From Pseudomonas helvetica (GTDB lineage: Bacteria > Pseudomonadota > Gammaproteobacteria > Pseudomonadales > Pseudomonadaceae), in assembly GCF_039908645.1 (NCBI RefSeq), contig NZ_CP150917.1, forward strand, positions 3,607,501-3,671,500: a stretch of 64,000 bases of DNA. Direction: 5' to 3'. The position numbers were made by a program, and so were the translations under genes. Numbering within the stretch: position 1 is the first letter of the stretch; each line of letters opens with the position of its first letter. Below, one piece after another: positions 1,476 through 60,657 of the stretch. Under the pieces are notes generated by a model. It saw only the letters and a list, made by a program, of their open reading frames with translations. It was not told the origin of the DNA and did not search any database.

Positions 1476-2489
1476 ATGACCTACCGCACACTGGGCCACT
1501 CTGGACTGCAAGTGTCCACCCTGACCCTGGGCACCATGATGTTCGGCGAGCAGACCAGCACCGAAGACTCGCTGCGGATCATCGAGAAGGCCTGGGATCA
1601 AGGCGTCAACTTCATCGACACGGCAGACGTATACACCGGCGGCCGCTCCGAGGAGATCGTCGGCGAAGCCATTGCCAGTCACCGCCATGAATGGGTGGTG
1701 GCTTCCAAGGTCGGCTTCGGCCCGGTGGACGGTGTGCCGAATCGCAGCGGGCTGAGCCGCAAGCACCTGTTCAATGGCATCGATGCAAGCCTGTCCCGCC
1801 TGGGCACCGATTACCTGGACATCTATTACCTGCACCGCGAAGACCACAACACGCCGCTGGAGGTCACGGTGTCGGCCATCGGCGACCTGATTCGCCAAGG
1901 CAAGATCCGTTACTGGGGCCTGTCCAACTACCGTGGCTGGCGGATCAGCGAGGTGATCCGCGTCGCCGAGAAACTCGGCGTCGACAAACCGGTGATCAGC
2001 CAGCCGCTGTACAACATCGTCAATCGCCAGGCCGAAACCGAACAAATCACCGCCGCCAATGCCTACGGCCTCGGCGTGGTGCCTTACAGCCCGTTGGCCC
2101 GTGGCGTGTTGAGCGGCAAGTACGCGCCAGACGCCACCCCGGACGCCAACAGCCGCGCCGGTCGCCAGGACAAGCGCATCCTGGAAACCGAATGGCGGGT
2201 CGAGTCGCTGCGCATTGCCCAGCAGATTCAGACGTACACCCAAGAGCGCGGCGTCGGCATCGTCGAGTTCGCGATCGCCTGGGTGCTGAACAACTCTGCC
2301 GTCAGCTCGGCCATCGTCGGGCCGCGCACCGAAGCCCAATGGGATGCCTACACCAAGGCCCTGGCGGTGAAGATCACGGCTGAAGACGAAGCCTTCATTG
2401 ACTCGCTGGTAACGCCGGGACACTCGTCGACGCCGGGGTTCAATGACGTGAGTCATTTCGTCTCGGGGCGTAAACCGCGCAATACCTGA
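1476..2489 (+). CDS. Aldo/keto reductase
   Basis: A 337-residue NADPH-dependent aldo/keto reductase with a TIM-barrel fold, cytosolic. The catalytic tetrad is readable: Asp and Tyr in NFIDTADVYTGG, Lys in VVASKVG, and His in YYLHRED. The C-terminal NADPH-binding part (AIVGPRTEAQWD) is present and the length is normal for the YajO/Tas-like group. It follows the MFS gene by 100 bp, so the two may handle one compound, but this is inference. A REP-type inverted repeat follows the stop codon. Confidence 0.88.
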   Translation: MTYRTLGHSGLQVSTLTLGTMMFGEQTSTEDSLRIIEKAWDQGVNFIDTADVYTGGRSEEIVGEAIASHRHEWVVASKVGFGPVDGVPNRSGLSRKHLFNGIDASLSRLGTDYLDIYYLHREDHNTPLEVTVSAIGDLIRQGKIRYWGLSNYRGWRISEVIRVAEKLGVDKPVISQPLYNIVNRQAETEQITAANAYGLGVVPYSPLARGVLSGKYAPDATPDANSRAGRQDKRILETEWRVESLRIAQQIQTYTQERGVGIVEFAIAWVLNNSAVSSAIVGPRTEAQWDAYTKALAVKITAEDEAFIDSLVTPGHSSTPGFNDVSHFVSGRKPRNT

Positions 2490-2499
2490 ATCATTCCTA

Positions 2500-2631
2500 T
2501 GTGGCGAGGGAGCTTGCTCCCGCTGGGCCGCAGGGCGGCCCCAAACCCAGGTATCGCGTTCTCACTGATGAACCGAGTTGCTTGGGTTGCGACAGCTGCG
2601 CAGCCGAGCAGGAGCAAGCTCCCTCGCCACA
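2500..2631. repeat. REP/BIME-type inverted repeat pair
   Basis: Two facing arms, tgtggcgagggagcttgctcc (2500-2520) and its near-complement at 2611-2631, enclose about 90 bp with further small palindromes. The gagggagcttgctccc core is the common extragenic palindrome of the P. fluorescens group. It lies between the reductase and a RarD-like gene and may act as a terminator or mRNA end. Confidence 0.8.
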
Positions 2632-2724
2632 GGATCAGCGTGCAGTCAGATGAACGATATTCTTTGAGCAATCCACGTTATCCTCTGCGCCCCTTGAATT
2701 ACCGCCACGTCTCGCGAGGACAGT

Positions 2725-3606
2725 TTGTCTAAAGGTATTGCTCTATCGGTGACAGCCTCGGTGCTGTTCGCCGTCATGTATTTCTACACCTCGTTGCTGT
2801 CGCCCCTGAGCGGCGTGGAAATCTTCGGCTGGCGAATGCTGCTGACCGTGCCGTGCATGACCGTGTTCATGGTGGTTTCCGGCGAATGGCGGCGCGTGGT
2901 CGAGATCCTCCGTCGGGTGGGCAGCAAACCGGCATTGTTCGGTGGCCTGCTGGTTTCCTCGGCATTGCTCGGCGTGCAACTCTGGTTGTTCATGTGGGCG
3001 CCGCTGAACGGCCACAGCCTTGACGTTTCGCTGGGCTACTTCCTGTTGCCACTGACCATGGTGCTGACCGGGCGCATCGTCTATGGCGAACAGCTCTCGT
3101 ACCTGCAGAAGATCGCCGCGTTTTTCGCCACCCTCGGCGTGCTCAACGAGTTGTATCAGGTGGGCAGTTTTTCCTGGGCGACTCTCTTGGTGGCCATCGG
3201 TTACCCGACCTACTTCGTGCTGCGCCGACGCTTGGCGTCGGACAACCTCGGTGGCTTGTGGCTGGACATGACGCTGATGCTGCCGGTGGCGTACGGGTTC
3301 GTGCACAGCGGTGAACAAGGCTTTGCCGTATTTGATCAACACCCGTGGTTGTCGCTACTGATCCCGATGCTCGGGGTGATCAGTGCTTCGGCGCTGGTGG
3401 TGTACATCATCGCCAGCCGCTTGCTGCCGTTCAGCCTGTTCGGGCTGCTGAGCTACGTCGAACCGGTGCTGTTGCTGGGGGTTGCGTTGTTGCTGGGGGA
3501 AAGTATCAAGGCGGGAGAATGGCTGACCTACATTCCGATCTGGCTGGCGGTGCTGGTGTTGGTGTTTGAGGGCTTCAAGCATTTGATGCGGCATCGCCGC
3601 CCTTGA
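2725..3606 (+). CDS. RarD-like EamA-family transporter
   Basis: A 293-residue membrane protein with about ten helices and two EamA repeats, matching the RarD branch of the drug/metabolite transporter superfamily (opening KGIALSVTASVLFAVMYFYT, then FGWRMLLTVPC). It probably exports a small metabolite; the substrate is unknown. The start is a TTG at 2725 with a gagga ribosome site 5-6 bases upstream, and no in-frame ATG is better placed. REP-type repeats lie on both sides, so it is probably transcribed alone. Confidence 0.82.
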   Translation: MSKGIALSVTASVLFAVMYFYTSLLSPLSGVEIFGWRMLLTVPCMTVFMVVSGEWRRVVEILRRVGSKPALFGGLLVSSALLGVQLWLFMWAPLNGHSLDVSLGYFLLPLTMVLTGRIVYGEQLSYLQKIAAFFATLGVLNELYQVGSFSWATLLVAIGYPTYFVLRRRLASDNLGGLWLDMTLMLPVAYGFVHSGEQGFAVFDQHPWLSLLIPMLGVISASALVVYIIASRLLPFSLFGLLSYVEPVLLLGVALLLGESIKAGEWLTYIPIWLAVLVLVFEGFKHLMRHRRP

Positions 3607-4800: not shown

Positions 4801-5050
4801 GGTTGGCGCCTCATCATGATGCTTTTGGAATTAACGGAACGTTAGTTACAAGCACTGCTGAGAGCGGCGGGTGGCGCGCAGGAGATACCTCGCACACTGC
4901 GGGCGAGAAAATCACCGTAGATCAATTGGAACCCAAATATCTTCATTGTCGACCCAAGGCTCTTGCGGGCGAGGCTTCTGCTGCCAGAAGACGTTATTCT
5001 TATATGCGTAACCTGATTCTACACAGCGTAACAATGTTTGTCCGCCTTCT

Positions 5051-6001
5051 CTATAAAATCCCCCTTTTTGACACCGGTGCAAGAGGTTTATTGCACAGGT
5101 AAATGCCCAGCAGAATCGCCGCGCCTCCCAGGTACATCGCCCCACTCAACTGCTCGCCCAGCAACAGCGCGCCAAGTATCACTGCCGTCAGCGGATTCAG
5201 GGCGATAAACACCCCCGAGCGGGTGGCGCCGATTTTACGAATACTGTCGTAGTACCAAATGTAGGCCAGCGCCGAGCCGAGTACCCCCAGATACAACAGA
5301 CTCAACAGCTGCGTCACCTGCAAATCGCCCAGGACCTCAAGACTCACTTCACCGCGCACGGCGCTGGTCGTGCACAACATCAGTGTGCCCAGCACAATCG
5401 AGTAGGTCACGGTATGCAGCGGGCCCAACGCCTGGTTCAGACCTTTGGAAAACAAAGAGTAAATTCCCCAACCCAACACGCAACCGAAAATCAGCAGATC
5501 ACCGATCCAGCTGTTCGCGGCGGCGCCATCAAACACCGGCTGGTTGCGACTGAAAATGACCACCCCTGCCCCAGCGATGCAGATCGCGATGCCTGCAATT
5601 TTGGTTCGACTCAAGCGCTCCTTGAACAGCAGCCACGACGCCAACCCGATGACCGCCGGATTCAGCGCCACGATCAGCGATGCCCGAGAGGCGTTGATGT
5701 AGTGCAAGCCGTAAAAGAAACACAGGTTGTAAAAGAAGATCCCGAAAAAACCCAGCATCCCCAGCTGCAACCACTGCCTGAAGGTCGGACGCATCAAAGG
5801 GATGCGCGCCAGAACCATAAACAGTAGCAAGGCCAGGCTCGCCAGCAGAAAACGCAAGCTCGCCGCAAATAGCGGGCTGAGTGAGTCGGCGAGAAACCGG
5901 CCGGCCACGAAGGTCCCACCCCAGATCATGGTGACAGTGGCGAGTTTCAGGTAGACCGGAACATCTGAATCACGGGAGCCACTTTGGACAAGGCTTTTCA
6001 T
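5051..6001 (-). CDS. DMT-family (EamA) transporter
   Basis: A 316-residue inner-membrane protein with ten predicted helices and two EamA repeats (WGGTFVAGRFLADSLSPLFA in the first, LNPLTAVILGALLLGEQLS in the second). It probably effluxes an amino acid or similar metabolite. The ATG follows a ggagattt ribosome site. It is transcribed divergently from the LysR gene at 6074 with only 72 bp between them. This arrangement usually means the LysR protein controls the transporter. Confidence 0.88.
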   Translation of the reverse strand: MKSLVQSGSRDSDVPVYLKLATVTMIWGGTFVAGRFLADSLSPLFAASLRFLLASLALLLFMVLARIPLMRPTFRQWLQLGMLGFFGIFFYNLCFFYGLHYINASRASLIVALNPAVIGLASWLLFKERLSRTKIAGIAICIAGAGVVIFSRNQPVFDGAAANSWIGDLLIFGCVLGWGIYSLFSKGLNQALGPLHTVTYSIVLGTLMLCTTSAVRGEVSLEVLGDLQVTQLLSLLYLGVLGSALAYIWYYDSIRKIGATRSGVFIALNPLTAVILGALLLGEQLSGAMYLGGAAILLGIYLCNKPLAPVSKRGIL

Positions 6002-6073
6002 AAATCTCCACGCTGAGAAGGACGTTAGATAACGTATTCTTTGCGTAATGTCTGATCATCGTAAAATGAGTAA

Positions 6074-6952
6074 ATGCTCATGACCCTTACCCAACTCGAG
6101 ATCTTTTCGCTGGTGGCCGAGCTGCACGGTTTCACCAGCGCGGCCAACCGCCTGGGCATCACCCAGTCGGCAGTGTCCCATGCCATCAAGTCGCTGGAGC
6201 AGGAACTCGGTGTCGAGTTGCTCAGACGGCATCAGGCCCACATCGAGCTCAGCGATATCGGTCAACAATTGCTGTTGCGCGCCCGCGCCATGCTCGGGCT
6301 GGCCAGCACCCTGCGCCAGGAAGCCGCGGATGCTCGCGGAATGAAGCGTGGCACGCTGCGTATCGGCTCTTTCGGACCGACCTCGTCGATCAAACTGCTG
6401 CCGAAGATTTTGCAGCACTACCGCGCGGCGTATCCCGGAATCGAGGTCCACGTTGACGAAGGCCCGGATCGGCAAGTGCTGCAATGGCTTGAAGAGCGGC
6501 GTATCGACATCGGTTTTGTGGTGTTGCCCGAAGAACGTTTCGATACGTTTGCGCTGGTGGAAGACCAGATGGTCGCGCTGATACCGGCTACTCATGAACT
6601 CGCCCGGCGCGACAGCCTGAGCTTGAGTGATCTGTGTCACGACCCGTTCATTCTCACTGAAGCAGGCTCTTCGGAGCTGGTTTCGCACCTGTTCAGCACT
6701 GCCCGGCTGACCCCGGACATTCGCTATCGCAGCTCGCAATTGCTCAGCACACTGGAAACCGTCAGCCGTGGCGACGCCTTGACGCTGGTCGCCGAACTTT
6801 CGCTGCCGAACGCGGAACACGCGCGCTACGTGAAAAGGCCCCTTAAACCACCGGTCAAACGTCAGGTTGGCCTGGCAGTACTCGACCAGCGCCAATCATC
6901 ACCGGCGACCCTCGCGTTTATCAAATTGGCCATAAGTCTGGACTACCGTTGA
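6074..6952 (+). CDS. LysR-family transcriptional regulator
   Basis: A 292-residue regulator with an N-terminal winged helix (MTLTQLEIFSLVAELHGFTS, recognition helix near SAANRLGITQSAVSHAIKSLE) and a substrate-binding domain starting near residue 90 (GTLRIGSFGPTSS). It is divergent from the EamA transporter across a 72-bp spacer, its probable target. The effector is unknown. A second in-frame ATG two codons downstream is an equally good start. Confidence 0.93.
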   Translation: MLMTLTQLEIFSLVAELHGFTSAANRLGITQSAVSHAIKSLEQELGVELLRRHQAHIELSDIGQQLLLRARAMLGLASTLRQEAADARGMKRGTLRIGSFGPTSSIKLLPKILQHYRAAYPGIEVHVDEGPDRQVLQWLEERRIDIGFVVLPEERFDTFALVEDQMVALIPATHELARRDSLSLSDLCHDPFILTEAGSSELVSHLFSTARLTPDIRYRSSQLLSTLETVSRGDALTLVAELSLPNAEHARYVKRPLKPPVKRQVGLAVLDQRQSSPATLAFIKLAISLDYR

Positions 6953-7033
6953 AAAGCGCAAAGCCTTTACCCCATCTATCATGGCCCTTGTCTGTACTCT
7001 TTTTGAGAGGCAAGCCTTCGTCCTGCCTGCATT

Positions 7034-7064
7034 TGAGAGCCCTACTCTTCTGAGAGCCCTACTC
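7034..7064 (+). repeat. Two copies of a 14-bp direct repeat before the EAL gene
   Basis: The 14-mer tgagagccctactc occurs at 7034-7047 and again at 7051-7064, separated by 3 bp. It lies 20 bp before the EAL gene start, inside its probable promoter or 5' leader. It could be a regulator site or a simple duplication. Confidence 0.6.
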
Positions 7065-7084
7065 CGTCGCCGCAGGTTCCACAC

Positions 7085-8620
7085 ATGCCCTTGACCTTCA
7101 AAGCCCGCCGCACGCCACGGACTCGCAACCTCATCACGCTGTTGGTCGGCTTGGTGCCTGTACTACTGGGTTTCGTCATTCTGCACATGCAAGCCGGACG
7201 GGTGCTGGAGCAAAGCACCCACCAAACGGCCGAAGAAGCGGTGCGGCAATTCGATTTGATGCTCGATGACACCGCGCTGGCGGCACAAGAACTGCTGCCG
7301 CTGGCCGGACAGCCTTGCGCCGATGTCAAACTGGCCCTGCGCGAACAAGTCACGCGCCGGCCCTTCGTGCGTTCGACCAATCTTGTGTGGGACAACAACA
7401 TATATTGCAGTTCACTATTTGGCGACTATCAGGCAACGGTTGATCCTGGCGAGTACACACAAGGCAAGTTGTGGTTGATGAACGGCAACCCGGTCACACC
7501 CAATACCGCGGTGCTGGTGTATCGCCTCAGCGAAGGCAAGCAAGGCGCCCTGAGCGCCCTTGACGGCTATCACCTGAGCAACGTCCTGCGGCTGATTGGT
7601 CGCCAGACTCTACTGTTACTGCACGTCGGCCCCCACTGGTTATCTACCGATGGCCAGGTCCACGAGGGCGCCCTGTCCATATTCCCGGTAGCCCGAAGCA
7701 ACCTTGCGTCTTCGCGGTATGCCTTTGAAGTAGAGGCCGGCTTTCCCGAGGGCGAAGTCTGGCGCTACATGAAAAGCGAATACCCGCCGCTGTTCAGCCT
7801 GCTGATCTTCTTTGGGGTGATTGCCGGGGCCATTGGTCATTGGCTACAGAAGCGCTCCTCATCACAGACTCATGAACTGCAACGGGCACTGGAAGCCAAT
7901 GAGTTCATTCCTTACTTCCAGCCTGTGGTTCATGGTGACAGCAAAGAGTGGGCAGGCGTCGAGGTCCTGATGCGCTGGCAACACCCAAAAGAAGGCCTGG
8001 TGCGTCCGGACCTGTTCATTCCATTCGCCGAGCATTCCGGATTGATCGTGCCGATGACCCGCTCGTTGATGCGCCAGACTGCCGCGTTGCTCGCCCCGCA
8101 TGCGCCTGTGTTCCATGAGCGCTTTCACATCGGCATCAACATCACCGCCAGCCACTGCCGTGACCTTGCACTGGTAGACGATTGCCGCGAATTTCTCGCC
8201 GCCTTCCCGCCCGGCAAGGTTGCACTGGTTCTGGAACTGACCGAGCGCGAGCTGATCGAACCCAACGCCATCACCCTTCAATTGTTCGAACAGTTACATG
8301 CGTTGGGGGTGATGATTGCGATCGATGATTTTGGCACCGGGCATTCTAGCCTGGGCTATTTGCGCCAGTTCAATGTGGACTTTCTGAAAATAGATCAGAG
8401 CTTTGTGGCGATGATCGGTGTTGATGCCTTGTCCCGCCACATACTCGACAGCATCATCGAACTCTCGGCCAAGCTGGACCTTGGTATCGTTGCCGAAGGT
8501 GTCGAAACCCTCGAACAGAGTGATTATCTTGCCCGTCACGGGGTGAACTTCCTGCAAGGCTACCTATTTGGACGACCGATGCCGGGCGCCGATTTCATTA
8601 TTGCGTTGAACAGCCATTAA
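7085..8620 (+). CDS. CSS-motif EAL-domain c-di-GMP phosphodiesterase
   Basis: A 511-residue inner-membrane protein. It has an N-terminal helix (residues 20-38), a periplasmic sensor of about 200 residues holding the Cys-Ser-Ser triplet (NNIYCSSLFG), a second helix (LFSLLIFFGVIAGAIGHWL), and a cytoplasmic EAL domain. Such CSS proteins sense periplasmic redox state through the paired cysteines and hydrolyse c-di-GMP to pGpG. The EAL signature reads EVLMRW. The other catalytic pieces (IDDFGTGHSSL, LKIDQSF, VAEGVET) are intact, so activity is likely. It stands alone, preceded by a duplicated 14-mer. Confidence 0.92.
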   Translation: MPLTFKARRTPRTRNLITLLVGLVPVLLGFVILHMQAGRVLEQSTHQTAEEAVRQFDLMLDDTALAAQELLPLAGQPCADVKLALREQVTRRPFVRSTNLVWDNNIYCSSLFGDYQATVDPGEYTQGKLWLMNGNPVTPNTAVLVYRLSEGKQGALSALDGYHLSNVLRLIGRQTLLLLHVGPHWLSTDGQVHEGALSIFPVARSNLASSRYAFEVEAGFPEGEVWRYMKSEYPPLFSLLIFFGVIAGAIGHWLQKRSSSQTHELQRALEANEFIPYFQPVVHGDSKEWAGVEVLMRWQHPKEGLVRPDLFIPFAEHSGLIVPMTRSLMRQTAALLAPHAPVFHERFHIGINITASHCRDLALVDDCREFLAAFPPGKVALVLELTERELIEPNAITLQLFEQLHALGVMIAIDDFGTGHSSLGYLRQFNVDFLKIDQSFVAMIGVDALSRHILDSIIELSAKLDLGIVAEGVETLEQSDYLARHGVNFLQGYLFGRPMPGADFIIALNSH

Positions 8621-8866
8621 TTAGCCACTTTGCGCGTTCCATGGACATCCTCAACAAAAGGATCCACGCCGCAAATTGCATCAAACAGCAACGTGCGTTA
8701 CATCATGAAAAAGACGTGATTTACTCTGAGCGAATTAACTACTACAATTTTTCTTGCCTGCACAAGATTGACAGGTGAGCCATTAACACCGAGTCGCTAC
8801 AAGGCTCTTGGCTTATAGCTTTGTTGGCGGTTGGTATCAGCCAAACACACTATTGGAGTAAAGATA

Positions 8867-9229
8867 TTGTCCAGACTCGCTGAATTTCGTGCCGCTGAAA
8901 AGGCCCTTCAAGAACAGCTCGCGCAGCTGGAATCGCTGAAGAACGACGCCGGGCTCAAGAAAGAAATCGAATTCGAAGAAAAGCTCCAGGGGCTGATGAA
9001 AACCTACGGCAAGAGCTTGCGCGACATCATCGCCATTCTCAACCCGAACCCAAAATCCGGCCTGCTGCAGGCCGCCGCACCTAAAACTCGCCGCGCCCGC
9101 GTGGTCAAGGTTTATCAAAACCCGCACACCGGTGAACTGATTGAAACCAAGGGCGGCAATCACCGTGGCCTGAAAGCCTGGAAGGAACAATATGGTGCAA
9201 GCACCGTTGACTCCTGGCTGCGCACTTAA
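8867..9229 (+). CDS. MvaT/MvaU-family H-NS-like nucleoid protein
   Basis: A 120-residue DNA-binding xenogeneic silencer. The N-terminal half is a coiled-coil oligomerisation region (RLAEFRAAEKALQEQLAQLE). The C-terminal AT-hook-like domain carries KVYQNPHTGELIETKGGNHR, the MvaT signature. I place the start at the TTG at 8867 because tattggag lies 8 bases upstream and the protein then begins MSRLAEF as in relatives. An in-frame upstream start (8831) would add 12 unrelated residues. Pseudomonads carry several paralogs, so mvaT, mvaU or mvaV cannot be decided here. A strong terminator follows. Confidence 0.92.
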   Translation: MSRLAEFRAAEKALQEQLAQLESLKNDAGLKKEIEFEEKLQGLMKTYGKSLRDIIAILNPNPKSGLLQAAAPKTRRARVVKVYQNPHTGELIETKGGNHRGLKAWKEQYGASTVDSWLRT

Positions 9230-9250
9230 GCTTTCCTGCGCCCCCTCCAA

Positions 9251-9276
9251 AAGCCCTGCCTGTGCAGGGCTTTTTT
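9251..9276 (+). terminator. Rho-independent terminator of the MvaT-family gene
   Basis: agccctgc-ctgt-gcagggct hairpin followed by six T, 20 bp after the stop codon. Confidence 0.9.
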
Positions 9277-9427
9277 ATGCTCACCTATACTTAATGCAAC
9301 GATGATCGTCGATCTAGTTGGAAACGCCGGCCAAATACCATGGGCATCCGGTACAACTTTCTGCTTAATCCCTTTGGGTATTAAACAACACCCCTCGGCA
9401 CGGCTAACGTGCAGACATCGCGCACTA

Positions 9428-47993: not shown

Positions 47994-49247
47994 ATGGCAG
48001 CACTCGAAAAGCGCTATCCCCGCGAATCCTTCACCAAGAAGCTGGAACGGATCTGCCAGAGGCTTGATGAAGCCTGTGAACGCAGCATTACCTACAGGCA
48101 CATCTACAGCGACGAGACGTGTCAGGTCGAGATCACATCAATCTGGGTTGTTGGCTCCTATGCTCGTGGAGCGATAACTTGTGGCGATTTGGACTTGGTG
48201 ATGGGGTACAACCGCATCAAGGGTGGACTGCCCTCATCACGGGTCTTAGCAAAAGCTTTCTTTGGCTCACTCCCCCTTGTGCGTTATTACCCTGGCAGCC
48301 CGGCCGAAAACACCTCAGGAGTAGCCTTTCCCGAAGCCATCCAAATATGGTCCGGGCCTGGGTGCGATTGGAAGGCATCGATCAAATCAATTACACCGAA
48401 TCCGAATGCAGGAAGAGCCGCGCGCAAGACCGATTCGATCCCTTTACGCGACGAACAACTGCGCACTTATGGCGATGAGTATCAAGATGCTGCCGACCTA
48501 GAGCGCGACGGTCTGTGGGGGTGGGAGTTTGTCGAGATTGGCGCCCCAATGCTTGCCCCTTTTCCAACAGAAGAGCTAACCGATGATGAGCAACATCTCT
48601 TGCATGGCGCTACCTTTATGGGGCGCAAGTCCCAGCAACTCATTCCAGCGCTCATCAGGCTAATGAGAAAGCTGGAACCATACGGCTCGTGGACTTCGGT
48701 AGGTGGAGTCCAATCACGACTACGGTGCGGAGGGACAGAAATTGATCTCGGACGCCCAGGGCTCCCTCTGCGCTTCTTTGATCACAATCCTTGGGTGCAC
48801 CAACTGGTATTGATCCCTCACATTAGCGCTAGGGGGCCAAACGGTGCTTGGATTATTCGGCGAGGCCCCAATCACCCTGATCTACAGGCAATTGCTGGAA
48901 GGTATGCTTACTTCCTCGCTAGCTCAGGCGGCCCAAACAAAATTATCTACTGCGACAAGTCTCAGTACATGGCACCTGCCGCATTAGAACTCCTCCATTC
49001 CCGCGAGGAGGCGCAAGTACTAGCCAAGCTTTGGAGTGAAGGTGACGAAACTATAGAAACAGACATCGGTAGAGCCGAAGGGGTCGAGTTGCTCTCACTT
49101 TTTGGTCTAGTAGACATCGTAGAGATTGGAGACCACCAGCTTGCAATGACACATTCTGGGTCAAGCTATCTGGAGCGAGATGAAGCAACAATGGACGACA
49201 TTGTCGCCACCCTTCCCCTGACGACTAAGATCAATTCTGAAGCTTGA
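47994..49247 (+). CDS. Orphan nucleotidyltransferase-fold protein
   Basis: A 417-residue soluble protein. The N-terminal domain has the polymerase-beta-type nucleotidyltransferase signature: Gly54-Ser55 followed by Asp65-x-Asp67 (WVVGSYARGAITCGDLDLVM). The middle (near 185-250) and C-terminal parts (LHSREEAQVLAKLWSEGD) match nothing I recognise. The GS-x-R-G ... D-x-D arrangement fits minimal nucleotidyltransferases, tRNA-type enzymes and the CD-NTase group alike. No effector gene lies beside it. The start is uncertain: 47994 or upstream 47940. It converges with the split small ORF, overlapping its end by 17 bp. Confidence 0.65.
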   Translation: MAALEKRYPRESFTKKLERICQRLDEACERSITYRHIYSDETCQVEITSIWVVGSYARGAITCGDLDLVMGYNRIKGGLPSSRVLAKAFFGSLPLVRYYPGSPAENTSGVAFPEAIQIWSGPGCDWKASIKSITPNPNAGRAARKTDSIPLRDEQLRTYGDEYQDAADLERDGLWGWEFVEIGAPMLAPFPTEELTDDEQHLLHGATFMGRKSQQLIPALIRLMRKLEPYGSWTSVGGVQSRLRCGGTEIDLGRPGLPLRFFDHNPWVHQLVLIPHISARGPNGAWIIRRGPNHPDLQAIAGRYAYFLASSGGPNKIIYCDKSQYMAPAALELLHSREEAQVLAKLWSEGDETIETDIGRAEGVELLSLFGLVDIVEIGDHQLAMTHSGSSYLERDEATMDDIVATLPLTTKINSEA

Positions 49248-49417
49248 GCTTGGCTAGGCCCTGCTTGATATGCCCGGCGTTCTTACCAATTGCCTGTAGA
49301 GCTCCGCGGACGTTGTCGCCAGTCCCTACATGGCCCTGGCTCTCAACCAGTAGCGTCAGCTCCATCAGAGCAGCCTCAAAGGCAAGCTGGTTCTCGTACA
49401 TTCTTTCGAGGATGTCG
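49231..49417 (-). pseudogene. 3' part of a small ORF split by the IS66 transposon
   Basis: Joining 53383-53353 to 49409-49231 on the minus strand removes the transposon and one target copy. It leaves an unbroken 70-codon ORF: MPDQYALPDILERMYENQLA, then FEAALMELTLLVESQGHVGT, ending AKLKLQN. The piece left here could still be translated from the internal ATG at 49401 (56 residues). The product is a small helical protein of unknown role; a truncated relative lies at 43632. The exact fit of frame and target duplication shows the insertion was into this ORF. Confidence 0.7.
49410..49417. repeat. Left copy of the 8-bp target-site duplication
   Basis: ggatgtcg immediately before the left terminal repeat (gtaagcg at 49418); the same octamer follows the right terminal repeat at 53353-53360. 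Confidence 0.85.
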
Positions 49418-49542
49418 GTAAGCGTCTGCCGAACCCACCTTCCTGATGCCTACGCTTAGGGCGATGGAGTCCATCTATTGAGATGCCCTCTCCCGTCGGG
49501 CAAACTCCGGTTGCTTCATTGACCGATAACAGGAGTTTACGG

Positions 49543-49797
49543 ATGCCATTTCCACTGACGGAACATAATGCCTTGTTGGCCCTGAAGGGCGTAGGGCCAG
49601 CTGTTATCGCTCGCCTTGAGCAGATGGGCATTGACTCGCTAGCGGTGCTCAGCAAAGCGAATGCTTGTGACATCCTGGCTCAGGCATCGGCAGCCGTGGG
49701 ATCGACTTGTTGGAAGAATAGCCCCCAAGCTCGGGCCGCCATTAACGCGGCCATTGAGCTTGCAAAGGACTCTCAGTTGAGCACACCGGGTGCGTAA
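49543..49797 (+). CDS. Helix-hairpin-helix protein (transposon passenger)
   Basis: An 84-residue protein with one helix-hairpin-helix motif (LLALKGVGPAVIARLEQMGI), then a second helical half ending AAIELAKDSQLSTPGA. Such motifs bind DNA backbone without sequence preference. The ATG at 49543 has aggag 7 bases upstream. Its end overlaps the WYL regulator start by 8 bp, so the two are co-translated. It lies just inside the left terminal repeat of the IS66 element. Resembles Cdd1-like helix-hairpin-helix proteins; role unknown. Confidence 0.72.
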   Translation: MPFPLTEHNALLALKGVGPAVIARLEQMGIDSLAVLSKANACDILAQASAAVGSTCWKNSPQARAAINAAIELAKDSQLSTPGA

Positions 49798-50503
49798 AGC
49801 TGATCGCTTATTTCAATTGGTAAATCTGATTCGTGTCCATCAGCCAATCTCTGCTGAACGACTGGCTAGCCGAGTCGGAGTTTCCGTTCGCTCAATCTAT
49901 CGATACATCGACGACCTTTCCTTCAGTGGAATCCCAATCTATGGTACCGCTGGCGTGGGGTACGCCTTGGATGCCGATTTTGAGATGCCGCCTTTAACGT
50001 TGAACAGGCTCGAACTGGATGCATTGATGCTTGGGATGGAAATGCTTTCAGCTTCTGCCGATAACGATCTAAGTGCTGCTGCAAGGATGTTGTTGAGCAA
50101 AATCTCAGCATCCATAGTCCATCACAAGGTTGACCCCGGCTCAGCAAAAATCAGGGCACTTGGAACAACACCGTCCTCGACGCGTGGCCATCTGGCAACC
50201 CTTCGAAATGCCATCGAAAACACTCAGGCGCTGAAGATAACTTATACCAGCCTGGACGGTGCGGTTTCGCAACGCGTCATTTCCCCCCTTGGCCTTTTCT
50301 ACTGGGGAGGGAAGTGGACAGTTGGCAGCTGGTGTAGTGCCAGGGCGGCTTACCGCGATTTTCGGGTCGACCGCATAGCCTCCATCGCTATTGCCCAACA
50401 ACCCTCGCCCGACAATCCTGCCCTTGATCTCCAAGCGTATATGAAGCATCAGGCAAGCCAGTGGAAGGCGATCACCACTACTGACACTACGCTGTCAGTA
50501 TGA
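49790..50503 (+). CDS. YafY-type WYL-domain transcriptional regulator (passenger)
   Basis: A 237-residue regulator with an N-terminal winged helix (RKADRLFQLVNLIRVHQPIS, recognition part VGVSVRSIYRYIDDL) and a WYL domain (LKITYTSLDGAVSQRVISPL, GLFYWGGKWTVGSWCSARAA). WYL proteins sense ligands or nucleic acid and are often linked to DNA damage, mobile DNA or defence. The start is GTG at 49790, inside the previous gene. It probably controls the short passenger operon. Confidence 0.88.
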   Translation: MRKADRLFQLVNLIRVHQPISAERLASRVGVSVRSIYRYIDDLSFSGIPIYGTAGVGYALDADFEMPPLTLNRLELDALMLGMEMLSASADNDLSAAARMLLSKISASIVHHKVDPGSAKIRALGTTPSSTRGHLATLRNAIENTQALKITYTSLDGAVSQRVISPLGLFYWGGKWTVGSWCSARAAYRDFRVDRIASIAIAQQPSPDNPALDLQAYMKHQASQWKAITTTDTTLSV

Positions 50504-50547
50504 GCCACTCATAATTGGGACTCCCTAACACACAGAAGGTCATCCCT

Positions 50548-50856
50548 ATGCAGCGCTCATCTCATGTACTCGAATTAGCCATTTTCAAGGTCAAACAGGA
50601 ATGCGTTGCGCAGGTGCCTGTGCTCCGCGCAGGGCTTCGTGAAACGTTAAAGACCTTTCCTGGTTTGATCGAGTACCGCGCCTACTGCCCTATGAGCGAC
50701 GACCGAATCTTCGCGGACTTAGCAATGTGGGACAGTCTTGAGAACGCACAAAAAGTGGCAAAGGCGTTCAATGATGGAGATCCGAGATTCTCTGAGTATA
50801 TGTACGCTATTGAAAACCTGACGTTCATGAGTCACCTCGTTCCAGAGATGAGTTGA
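50548..50856 (+). CDS. Dabb/ABM-fold small protein (passenger)
   Basis: A 103-residue alpha/beta-barrel protein of the Dabb or antibiotic-biosynthesis-monooxygenase type: HVLELAIFKVKQECVAQVPV, then FPGLIEYRAYCPMSDDRIFA and DLAMWDSLENAQKVAKAFND. Such dimeric proteins degrade or bind small molecules, some under stress. The ATG has agaagg 10 bases upstream. It is third of the passenger genes, 44 bp after the WYL regulator, its likely controller. Confidence 0.75.
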   Translation: MQRSSHVLELAIFKVKQECVAQVPVLRAGLRETLKTFPGLIEYRAYCPMSDDRIFADLAMWDSLENAQKVAKAFNDGDPRFSEYMYAIENLTFMSHLVPEMS

Positions 50857-51036
50857 CCCCGACGGACTGCCAGAGCAGGCAAGAAAGACCGATGCCTTTG
50901 CTGTCAGGCATCGGTGTCGTCACTTCCAGTGTAAGTGTCCTCAGATCACCTATTGCTATGTTCCGGGCTGCAAACTGACGTTATCTGGTAAAACCGTTTC
51001 GAAAAAACGTATCGTCCGCCCTCACACCTTGCGTGA

Positions 51037-52547
51037 CTAAATGGGCGACCACGTATGCGGCAGCAACTCGGTAATCTTACTCGCACGCTGCGTCGGCAGG
51101 CGAGTAAGAACATCCTTCAAGTAAGCATACGGATCATGCCCATTGAGCCGTGCCGACTGGATCAAACTCATGATCGTCGCCGCACGTTTACCGCTGCGTA
51201 ACGAACCCGCGAACAGCCAGTTCGAACGCCCAAGAGCCCACGGCCGGATTTGATTCTCGCACCAGTTATTATCGATGGGCACAGCACCGTCAGCGCTATC
51301 CAGCGTTTGAGGCTGTAATCCAACGCCTTGGCGATGGCCGATCCCTCAGGCACAAGCTGCCTTTGGGCGATCATCCAGATATGAAGTGCGTCGATGATCG
51401 GCGCTGCTTTTTCCTGCCGTATTCGCTGCCGGACACCCGGTTCCAGCTCGCGAGCCTCTCGTTCAACTTCGTACAAGGCCGCGATGTAGTGCAGCGCTTT
51501 TTCGGCGATCTGGCTCTTGTTGGTCGCGTGCAAGTCGAAGAACTTTCGGTGTGCATGGGCCATGCAGCCGATCTCCGTGACGCCCAGTTCAAAGCCTGCC
51601 TTGTAGCCAGCGAAGTCGTCGCAGACCAGCTTGCCGTTCCAGTTGCCAAGGAAGTTTCGGGCATGTTCGCCGGCACGGCTCGGACTGAAGTCATAAACGA
51701 CCGCAGCAAGTTTAGAGAACTGGCTGGTGGCATAGGCCCAGACGTAAGCACGATGAGTCTTCTTCGCGCCAGGCGTCAGCATTTGTACCGGGGTTTCGTC
51801 GGCGTGGACGACGCCGTGCGTCAGCACGACTTCGCGCAAAGCGTCGATTAGCGGTTGGAGTTGTACGCCGCAGTTGCCCACCCACTGCGCCAAGGTCGAA
51901 CGAGCGATGGGCAGTCCGGCTCGGCCGAAGATTTTCTCTTGGCGATACAGCGGTAGATGGTCGGCGAACTTGGCCACCATGACGTGGGCCAGCAGGCCCG
52001 CTGTCGGGATGCCCTTGTCGATGACGTGCGCCGGTACCGGCGCCTGGATCAGCGTTTCGCATTGTTCACAGACCCATTTCCCACGGATGTGGCGCTCGAC
52101 CGTGAATACGCCGGGCGTGTAGTCGAGCTTTTCGCTGGCATCTTCGCCGATGCGTTTTAAGGCGCAGCCGCAATGGCAGTGGCTATTGTCCGGTTCGTGA
52201 TGGATCAACGTGCGAGGGAACTGCGATGGCAGCGGTGCTCGCTTGGGTTGCTGGCGCACTTTGACTTCGACAGGTGCCGGTTGCGGCGCCTCAAGCTCCG
52301 CTTCGATAGCGGCGATATCGGTGTCGATCAAATCGTCGAGCAAGCTGGCCTGATCCGGACTTAGCTGCTCACTGCGCTTGGCAAATTTGAAGCGCTTGAG
52401 CTGTGCGATCTCGTGGGCCAGCTTCTCGTTAACCGATTTCTGATGGGTAATTTGCTTGTCCATTGTCTCGACGCGCTGGATCAACTGCGCCGCCAGGGCA
52501 CGCAGTTCTTCAGGGTTTAATTGGTCGAGATTTGGATGCGAAGTCAT
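51037..52547 (-). pseudogene. tnpC: IS66 transposase TnpC, frameshifted
   Basis: The first frame (start 52547) covers most of the enzyme: zinc-finger region (HCHCGCALKRIGEDASEKLD, CEQCETLIQAP), DDE acids in VVHADETPV and VCDDFAGYKAG, and the HAHRKFFD block. At about 51290 the frame is lost after LKRWIALT, where about 17 bp (the RFIDDGA segment in relatives) are missing. The rest continues in another frame as PIDNNWCENQIRPWALGRSN to the stop at 51037. The catalytic Glu (NWCENQ) is thus disconnected and the transposase inactive. Confidence 0.88.
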
Positions 52548-52630
52548 GCCGCCAATTTTGCCAGAGAGGGCTGGTGGCGACGATAGACTGATGGGCCAAT
52601 TGCGCTGGCAAGCGGGCCATGGCAGGCGAG

Positions 52631-52965
52631 TTAGAGCACCGTGATGACTCCTCCAGAACCGACGCGTTGCCAAGGTAACCCGAGTACCAGGGCTCGAAGT
52701 TGCTCGACGTCCAACTCGACTTCAGAGCCGTGCCGCCCCCCTGGCCAAAAGAAGCGCCCTTGATTCTAGCGCCGAGCTGCAAGCCAAATCCCCACCCCGT
52801 CATGCACCAACACTTTCATACGATTGGCGCGGCGGTTGGCGAACAGATATGCACAGTGCGGCTTCGCCGCACCGAACACCGCCACGACCCGCGCCAGCGC
52901 GGTTTCTGTGCCGGCTCGCAGTCCATGGGCTCAGTGGCGAGCCAGATGGAGTCGATGCGGATCAT
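52631..52965 (-). pseudogene. tnpB: IS66 accessory protein TnpB, broken
   Basis: Starts MIRIDSIWLATEPMD at 52965, overlapping the tnpA stop (ATGA). One base is missing right after GAC (gactgcgag in place of gacatgcgag), shifting the frame. The correct frame resumes (VHDGVGIWLAARR) but has TAG at 52766-52768 before NQGRFFWPGGRHG, and ends at 52631. Total length is one base short of 112 codons. Confidence 0.85.
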
Positions 52966-53279
52966 TGAGTTAGTCCGCGAAGGAATCGGGTACAGCCATC
53001 AGGATCGGAAGCCGGCCATTTCACGGTCATCGTTCCTTGCCCGCATGGCAACTCGATGCTGATGGACTTCTCGTTCGGAATGTTTGGTTCCAACTTCACC
53101 GGCAAGAAAGCGGGCAAGTCAGTGAACTGATGATCGCGGTAAAGCGGCAACCATTTGCGCACGACGTTGGCGTTGATGCCGTGACTCATCGCGACACTGG
53201 CAACAGAGGCGCCCGGTTGCAGGCATTCCTGGACGACTTGGGTTTTGAAGGGCTTTGGATAAGAGGTTCGTTGGCGCAT
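52962..53279 (-). CDS. tnpA: IS66 accessory protein TnpA
   Basis: A 105-residue IS66 OrfA with helix-turn-helix (RTSYPKPFKTQVVQECLQPG, ASVASVAMSHGINANVVRKW). It appears intact and overlaps tnpB by the usual ATGA. It lies 73 bp inside the right terminal repeat, so its promoter is in or near that repeat. Confidence 0.85.
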   Translation of the reverse strand: MRQRTSYPKPFKTQVVQECLQPGASVASVAMSHGINANVVRKWLPLYRDHQFTDLPAFLPVKLEPNIPNEKSISIELPCGQGTMTVKWPASDPDGCTRFLRGLTQ

Positions 53280-53352
53280 GGCGATCCGTTAATGGGTGGG
53301 CACCATCGCCCTAAGCGATGGCGTCAGGAAGGCGTGTTTGCCGGACGCTTAC

Positions 53353-53383
53353 GGATGTCGGGGAGGGCATATTGATCAGGCAT
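53353..53383 (-). pseudogene. Right target duplication and 5' end of the split small ORF
   Basis: ggatgtcg at 53353-53360 repeats 49410-49417. Beyond it, 53361-53383 read on the minus strand starts ATG and encodes MPDQYAL, in frame with the remainder at 49409-49231. Confidence 0.7.
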
Positions 53384-59542: not shown

Positions 59543-59848
59543 ATGCCTGAAGAAAATGTTTTGATCCAGCCGCTGCCTGTCAAGCGCGACGTTGATGGCT
59601 GGTGGTCCCATCCCGACTACCTGTCGGAGTTCGACGATGAAATCACTGAAGCGCAGTTCCATGAATGGTGCCTGCGCCACCAGATGGAAACGAAGATCAC
59701 TTACATGGAAAGCGATGTCGACGCCGATGGCCGAGGTGTACAAGCACGCCGATCAGCCGCTCAAAGATGCCCTGGACCTATTTTATCTGACAGGGCAACG
59801 AATCGCCGATACGTTGAAAATGGACGAACGAGATATCCGCGACGATAG
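59543..59848 (+). pseudogene. Small phage gene cut by a deletion into the integrase
   Basis: Starts MPEENVLIQPLPVKRDVDGW and continues WSHPDYLSEFDDEITEAQFH, a protein type I know from Pseudomonas prophages. After about residue 60 (position 59725) the frame continues in DNA that encodes the integrase in another frame, giving a meaningless tail. The point marks a deletion that removed the end of this gene and the start of the integrase gene. Confidence 0.6.
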
Positions 59849-60224
59849 ACTGGCGGTGCAGCAAGGGAAAACCCGAGCAAAAAGGCGGATTGAGATTGTT
59901 GGAGAGTTGAAGGTTGTGATTGACCGAATCCTTGCCAGAAAGGCCGGTCATAAGATCCGCACCAGCAAACTAATTGTTATGGATAACGGCCAACCTATGA
60001 CCACCAGCATGTTGCGAGGGAGGTTTGATGCGGCGCGAGAAGCGGCGGGAGTTGAAAAGGCTGACTTCCAGATGCGTGACTTGCGAGCAAAAGCCGGCAC
60101 TGATAAGGCAGAGTCGAGCGGAGATATCCTGCAAGCACGGGATCAGCTTGGTCATACGACTGTTGTTATGACTGAAAACTACATCCGTAAACGCATAGGC
60201 AAAAAGGTCACGCCAACCAAGTGA
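59727..60224 (+). pseudogene. int: Tyrosine-type phage integrase, N-terminally truncated
   Basis: The remaining 165 codons hold the catalytic domain: Arg in LFYLTGQRIADTLKM, the conserved box RDLRAKAGTDKAESS (Arg kept), LGHTTVVMTENYIRKR with the His and Tyr nucleophile. The N-terminal DNA-binding half is missing; the ATG at 59727 is simply the first in frame after the deletion point. The gene points at tRNA-Leu 81 bp away, the usual place of an integrase beside its attachment site. It shows that the island arrived at least partly as a prophage. Confidence 0.82.
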
Positions 60225-60305: not shown

Positions 60306-60392
60306 TGGTGCCCGAAGCCGGAATCGAACCGGCACGCCCTTACGAGCGGGGGATTTTAAGTCCCATGCGTCTACCAGTTTCGCCATTCGGGC
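60306..60392 (-). tRNA. tRNA-Leu (anticodon TAA)
   Basis: 87 nt with encoded CCA. Acceptor gcccgaa pairs with ttcgggc; anticodon loop cttaaaa gives TAA; a long variable arm typical of leucine tRNA follows; T-arm ggttcgattcc is intact. Its 3' end faces the integrase remnant. Confidence 0.95.
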
Positions 60393-60583: not shown

Positions 60584-60657
60584 TGGAGGCCGAGGTCGGA
60601 ATCGAACCGGCGTAGGCGGATTTGCAATCCGCTGCATAACCATTTTGCTACTCGGCC
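60584..60657 (-). tRNA. tRNA-Cys (anticodon GCA)
   Basis: 74 nt with encoded CCA. Acceptor ggccgag pairs with ctcggcc; anticodon loop tttgcaa gives GCA; T-arm ggttcgattcc is intact. Confidence 0.95.

Follow-up and report, generated by a model that had tools for sequence, protein, structure and literature searches.

IS66 elements are defined by terminal repeats beginning GTAA. This repeat form agrees with the description of Pseudomonas IS66 elements in the part of PMC12888890 available to us. In the same part of that paper, ISPa75 is presented as an IS66 element with a passenger gene, fosZ, downstream of the transposase, and seven of the 25 Pseudomonas IS66 entries in ISfinder are stated to carry passengers, for which the term tIS66 is used. 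The passenger-side end of ISPa75 is described there as resembling the IRL of ISPsy43 (PMC12888890), which by our own reading is the tnpA side.

Here, we analysed a window of 64,000 nucleotides of Pseudomonas helvetica, part of a 6.44-Mb single-contig genome, and found in it an IS66-family element of 3,935 bp (49418-53352) with three passenger genes inside. In our assessment this is very probably a passenger-carrying IS66 (tIS66) that inserted as a unit, gained its cargo through the loss of an inner tip and later underwent decay of its core, the order of events and the transposition itself being read from sequence alone. Positions below are those of the window, and labels beginning with L and G are ours for loci and genomes. 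The features are as follows.

49231 to 49417, minus strand: C-terminal part of the interrupted target gene (left-flank protein search and flank joining)
49410 to 49417, no strand: left copy of the 8-bp target duplication, GGATGTCG (sequence reading and end scan)
49418 to 49475, plus strand: outer left IS66 end, tnpA-side-like by local score, with the same boundary elsewhere
49476 to 49542, plus strand: leader of the HhH gene (by reading), similar in the HhH loci L055, L057 and L058
49543 to 49797, plus strand: passenger 1, a small helix-hairpin-helix (HhH)-like protein of 84 aa (relatives' names; pooled dN/dS 0.30)
49790 to 50503, plus strand: passenger 2, an HTH_11 and WYL regulator (YafY-like) of 237 aa (Pfam; pooled dN/dS 0.14)
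50548 to 50856, plus strand: passenger 3, a small ABM-like protein of 102 aa, the 'Dabb' of an earlier note on this DNA (weak Pfam match; pooled dN/dS 0.16)
50888 to 50915, minus strand: hairpin resembling a terminator, lying between passenger 3 and tnpC (by consensus match alone)
51013 to 51047, plus strand: remnant of an inner, tnpC-side IS66 end (score 25, maximum of 2000 shuffles 13; first five bases not conserved)
51037 to 52547, minus strand: tnpC, IS66 DDE transposase (Pfam), with a frame change near 51288-51291
52631 to 52965, minus strand: accessory gene tnpB, with a frame change near 52921
52962 to 53279, minus strand: accessory gene tnpA, open over its full length, 105 aa
53291 to 53352, minus strand: right IS66 end, tnpA side (end comparison)
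53353 to 53360, no strand: right copy of the target duplication, GGATGTCG (sequence reading and end scan)
53353 to 53383, minus strand: N-terminal part of the interrupted target gene, the octamer being common to both parts (flank joining)

Both ends of the element begin GTAAGCGTC, a GTAA-type start, and the octamer GGATGTCG lies directly outside both edges, at 49410-49417 and 53353-53360, in keeping with the 8-bp target duplication of the family. In a direct end-to-end comparison, 50 of 62 positions of the end repeats are identical, whereas none of 20,000 letter shuffles exceeded 30, and a repeat finder reports 65 nt at 80%. A shared 8-mer at the spacing of the element occurs at seven of 60,049 position pairs in the window, the GGATGTCG pair included. 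The outer left end scores 40 locally against the tnpA-side end of L009 (pF045_1), an element 91.1% identical over half of the query, and 36 against the window's own tnpA-side end, but only 18 against the tnpC-side end of L009. The earlier note had reported matching terminal repeats with the same octamer at both outer edges and three non-transposase genes between the left end and tnpC, and had cited as known for IS66 a gtaa start and 8-bp duplications; all of this is borne out, with an HhH-like, an HTH-WYL and a third gene lying within the IS66 ends and inside the duplication.

A DNA search for the empty site with the right flank returned mostly the stretch from query position 90 on, outside the junction, and the left-flank protein was used instead. 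When the two flanks are joined with a single octamer between them, a 69-aa minus-strand frame starting MPDQYALPDILERMYENQLAFEAAL opens. The left part of this frame has matches in 102 of 199 genus genomes, own included, and the small protein family has seven matches in the own genome, the window copy among them. Fifteen of the best-scoring homologue loci were fetched; one is the own interrupted copy, and in all 14 others the junction point is read through without a stop. Because the joined flanks form an open frame and these 14 loci are uninterrupted, the full 3.9 kb must have entered as a single piece. Further along the window, an integrase-like frame (59592-60224, by reading) lies next to two tRNA genes (60309-60392 and 60587-60657), and the region between about 43 kb and 60 kb is possibly an integrated island.

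The passenger part (query 49418-51005) was compared with 398 genus genomes, own included, with about two candidates scored per genome, so that extra copies can be missed. Matches were found in 124 of the 398, many only through the 60-bp end or the HhH gene. Most of the block is present at 92-97% identity in eight genomes besides the own (G119, G277, G237, G134, G038, G039, G096 and G103), the ABM-like gene lacking its end in G096 and most of HhH being absent from G103. A second collection comprised 79 distinct loci, nine of them at least 92% identical in WYL; five of these nine are, judged by length, contigs of the first collection, and four represent new genomes (Pseudomonas sp. H3(2019), Pseudomonas sp. 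GV085, P. laurylsulfativorans and P. fragi D12). The block is thus found in 13 genomes, own included, with 12 unrelated left flanks: the left flanks lack similarity except for G119 and G277 (98.9% over 920 bp), and the right flanks, compared in nine of the 13 genomes, show none. The window, L045, L046, L048, L049 and L053 share the base at which the left boundary falls, marked by GTAAGCGTC or a close variant of it, and their flanks are visibly different. In G119 and G277, tnpC-like sequence has taken the place of the left tip.

In L046 (G134; NZ_VWXK01000001.1, recorded as Pantoea sp. Ap-967), the same block lies in another IS66 element (4943-9374), which has an exact 8-bp duplication of its own, AAATGATT, on both sides and an IS66 core only 70-75% identical to that of the window. 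Left-facing ends are found in L046 near 4943, 5000, 6544 and 6679, and the outermost lies 57 bp outside the block's own end, so that the block's own left tip is unused there. Among 16 sources scanned for ends (L050 and L081 being one place), matching octamers were seen only in the window and L046, several of the other 14 being truncated or rearranged. Since the block recurs elsewhere behind the same outer left end, and also lies within a second IS66 element bracketed by a duplication, the WYL, HhH and third genes moved with the element, as the earlier note had claimed. Pseudomonas accounts for 70 of the 72 plasmid records matching the element; among the 40 of the 72 that were listed, no near match reaches the passenger part, and a plasmid search with the WYL protein returned 638 records, all under 60% identity. 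Two further arrangements were observed at these loci. Between the innermost left-facing end of L046 and its tnpC, a 168-aa kinase-like protein (6719-7225, by reading) forms a further passenger, and beside the same block in L076, IS66-like ends enclose a 135-aa protein and a LysE-like transporter (7139-8721, by reading), with no matching octamer at the edges of this stretch.

The IS66 end of L009 and L012 falls at the point matching about 51008, where L009 has the duplication CTCTAAGC (by reading). The inner end of the window is without its first bases, and the target duplication lies elsewhere. Another candidate end, at 50931 (GTAAGTGTC), was rejected with a score of 10 compared with 25 for the inner remnant. 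The remnant and the end point of L009 and L012 are also what would be expected if a plain 2.3-kb IS66 (about 51008-53352) had inserted beside resident passenger genes, the left repeat and octamer being leftovers of another IS66. We regard this as highly improbable: the octamers pair at 49410 and 53353, while the bases before the inner end, TCGAAAAA, do not match GGATGTCG; the flanks join into one gene across the outer edges, which contradicts such an insertion; and the block recurs elsewhere with the same outer boundary. The result named in the earlier note as speaking against it, relatives always ending near 50.9 kb with the passengers outside, is found in part, for L009 and L012, and is opposed by the recurrence of the block together with its outer end.

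The same inner junction is present in G119, G277 and G220. A 453-bp fragment from elsewhere in the own genome (G000:C1:1030383-1030835; L002 1501-1953), 99% identical to window 50622-51074, also has it, so that the unit probably predates the insertion seen here. The fragment adjoins an ORF with an RYADD stretch, which we take to be like that of group II intron reverse transcriptases. At the other side of the block, the sequence upstream of HhH from about 49476 on is also present at L055, L057 and L058, where no IS66 end is seen (by reading), and this places the joint between IS and host sequence near 49475.

The tnpA-side type of the outer left end is the type that an inverted left copy would give, had two IS66 copies flanked the genes, moved together with them as a composite transposon, and the left copy later been deleted to its last 60 bp. 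IS66 remnants are found outside the block in L043, L044, L047, L048 and L049. A composite transposon has a full IS copy on each side, and on the left only about 60 bp of an IS66 end are found here; moreover, several loci show the same short end meeting the HhH leader at roughly this position, so that the joint is older than the window copy, and the examined loci have no match to tnpA, tnpB or tnpC in the interval from the left end to HhH. This makes a composite origin rather improbable. The right edge of the matched block bears on another reading, a cassette without transposase, bounded by IS66 ends, that was mobilised in trans before fusing with an IS66 close by. In L046, L047, L049, L050, L076 and L080, a left-facing IS66-like end follows this edge within about 15 bp, at break points that differ (about query 1237 in L049, 1501 in L076, 1514 in L050, 1539 in L080, and 1550 in L046 and L047). 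Such an arrangement fits a cassette, but none of the 16 end-scanned sources has a right-facing end directly after the block together with a matching octamer, and the ends that do follow face left, as deletion by an adjacent IS66 would also leave them; the differing break points, too, are as adjacent deletions by IS66 would give. We consider the cassette unlikely.

The preferred reading is a tIS66 that acquired its genes by a change of ends, and the tnpA-side-type outer end and the tip-less inner remnant suggest how the cargo was gained. An ISPsy43-type IS66 core (inner end about 51008, right end 53352) lies beside an HhH-WYL-ABM-like block whose far side bears another IS66 end, of the tnpA-side type. 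After loss of the inner tip, the transposase may have paired this far end with the core's own tnpA-side end, whereby the genes between the paired ends would have become cargo. All 3,935 bp entered the small gene together, duplicating 8 bp, with tnpC and tnpB presumably decaying later, while the passenger frames are conserved across genomes.

The core has the gene set of the family, with a TnpC DDE transposase carrying IS66 domains (DDE_Tnp_IS66 at 9e-84, zf-IS66 and LZ_Tnp_IS66, with the C-terminal element on the second piece) and both accessory genes. However, tnpC lies in two frames that correspond to residues 1-420 and 425-508 of the L009 protein, and tnpB, 92-93% identical to that of L009, is likewise in two frames, so that the intact transposase genes of an autonomous transposon are absent; tnpA matches the NCBIfam model IS66_ISRel24_TnpA at 6.1e-24. 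No intact helper tnpC was found among 16 own-genome matches to one tnpC query: the window's own is split, another, 36% identical over residues 28-504, is interrupted by two stops, and the others are partial. The frameshifts in tnpC and tnpB, with no intact relative in the own genome by this one query, rule out a functional complete transposon. The element is disabled, its ends whole and its transposition machinery broken, and the 'complete' 3.9-kb transposon of the earlier note holds for the ends and fails for tnpB and tnpC. In other IS66 copies, a group II intron (Rfam RF00029) sits inside tnpC, at 4674-4750 in L044, 3948-4024 in L049 and 3228-3301 in L062, and by sequence also near 9475 in L080, where Rfam reports none at the gathering score. 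The site is a tnpC codon at about residue 437 in these different copies, and the alignments in L044, L049, L062 and L080 stop at the same base.

In the passenger block, the WYL protein matches Pfam WYL (1.3e-17) and HTH_11 (2.3e-14). The HhH-like protein has Pfam matches below cut-offs only, and many of its relatives are named helix-hairpin-helix or 'Pathogenicity locus'. For passenger 3, Pfam yields a single match with an E-value of 10 or less, ABM (E 0.0013; 19.3 bits, under the 23.1 cut-off), and the protein's named relatives are in part antibiotic biosynthesis monooxygenases and in part hypothetical proteins; the identification as Dabb in the earlier note is unsupported. Terminator-like sites number four, compared with 4.4 expected in shuffles. 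Pooled dN/dS was calculated by the Nei-Gojobori method from pairs of full-length copies without gaps or stops in the 13 genomes, using 10/13 copies of HhH, 13/13 of WYL and 12/13 of the ABM-like gene, the excluded copies being truncated or gapped. The pooled values of 0.30, 0.14 and 0.16, respectively, indicate that the passenger genes are under purifying selection. Their frames are kept across genomes, whereas tnpB and tnpC have decayed in the window copy, and the passengers would accordingly be functional cargo in this scheme.

WYL regulators commonly control neighbouring genes. Judged from weak domain matches, the likeliest role of the cargo is that of a small unit for stress response or detoxification, governed by the WYL regulator. 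PADLOC matched the WYL protein to WYL-domain models (two CRISPR-associated, one DRT-associated) and weakly to Cas3c, and gave nothing for the other three proteins submitted; with matches of this kind for the WYL protein only, the block was not called a defence system. Chromosomal pairs in Pseudomonas (L084, L086, L087 and L089) have the same order, WYL then ABM-like, with WYL 67-72% identical, and the fetched stretches contain neither HhH nor IS66 matches at an E threshold of 1e-4. Since such pairs are found without HhH, the HhH-WYL-ABM block may join two host sources.

To place the element among its relatives, 39 distinct tnpC loci (40 regions, one repeated) were surveyed from the top 44 matches, a sample weighted towards relatives of one query in which repeated copies of an element, whether in one genome or several, count separately. 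Exactly matching octamers were found in 18 of the 39, and no matching pair in 21. Of the 18 duplication-bracketed copies, six are classic (four in one genome) and 12 have 0.8-3.4 kb beside tnpC. The frames of the passenger stretch were listed for nine of the 12, and the encoded proteins, named by reading, resemble a chemoreceptor, CrcB with a pyrophosphatase, a SulP transporter with UspA and NUDIX proteins, an EamA-type transporter, a GFA-type protein and a GNAT acetyltransferase. Compared by reading with the classic L194, an inner-end remnant with changed tip is seen in three of the 12 passenger-bearing copies (L185, L198 and L200, two in one genome); L216 is borderline, and the remaining eight show no remnant in an ungapped test, which also misses the gapped remnant of the window (13 of 25 mismatches, random median 14), so that its negatives are weak. 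The tip-loss step is thus supported for the window element and a few others, and not as a general route. More tentatively, and with the balance of our judgement somewhat against it, Pseudomonas IS66 elements might grow one way by stacking ends: upon loss of the tnpC-side tip, or the landing of another element next to that end, the transposase would turn to the next left-facing end outward and carry along the genes between as cargo. On this view, the HhH-WYL-ABM block would belong to a pool of mobile blocks that swap cores, two of which are seen (window and L046), and are kept by selection after core decay.

In comparison with known systems, the classic IS66 copies without passengers (L194-L197, L215 and L222) have the same kind of ends and exact 8-bp duplications, but their left end lies 34-38 bp from the tnpC match with nothing between. 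The ISPsy43 plasmid records (H2-H4), called tIS66 in the part of PMC12888890 available to us, are 89.6-89.7% identical over query 1611-3548, the tnpC-tnpB part. They show no near match past query 3548, on the tnpA side, nor anywhere in the passenger part, and in pFKN the passenger side holds a chemotaxis receptor gene. Identity with ISPsy43 as the same named element was rejected, as the records match 49% of the query and none of the 72 covers 80%. No description of the window element was found among the titles and abstract beginnings listed in the literature searches. Gene-by-gene annotation would miss that its passenger block moves with an IS66, and the exact duplication, the empty-site reading and the second bracketed unit together indicate that ordinary IS66 elements move host-gene blocks between Pseudomonas-type genomes.

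Like the window element, ISPa75 and other Pseudomonas tIS66 have, in the portion of the source consulted, a tnpA-tnpB-tnpC core, a passenger downstream of the transposase gene and different target duplications (PMC12888890). The window element differs from ISPa75 as described there in its three other passenger genes, its broken tnpB and tnpC, and its visible tip-less inner end, of which that portion makes no mention for ISPa75 (PMC12888890). Passenger-bearing IS66 elements are therefore already described in that source and are frequent in our survey; what the window element adds is an unusually clear record of assembly, offering a testable picture of how an IS gains cargo, in which the inner end is disabled and a tnpA-side-type outer end is used.
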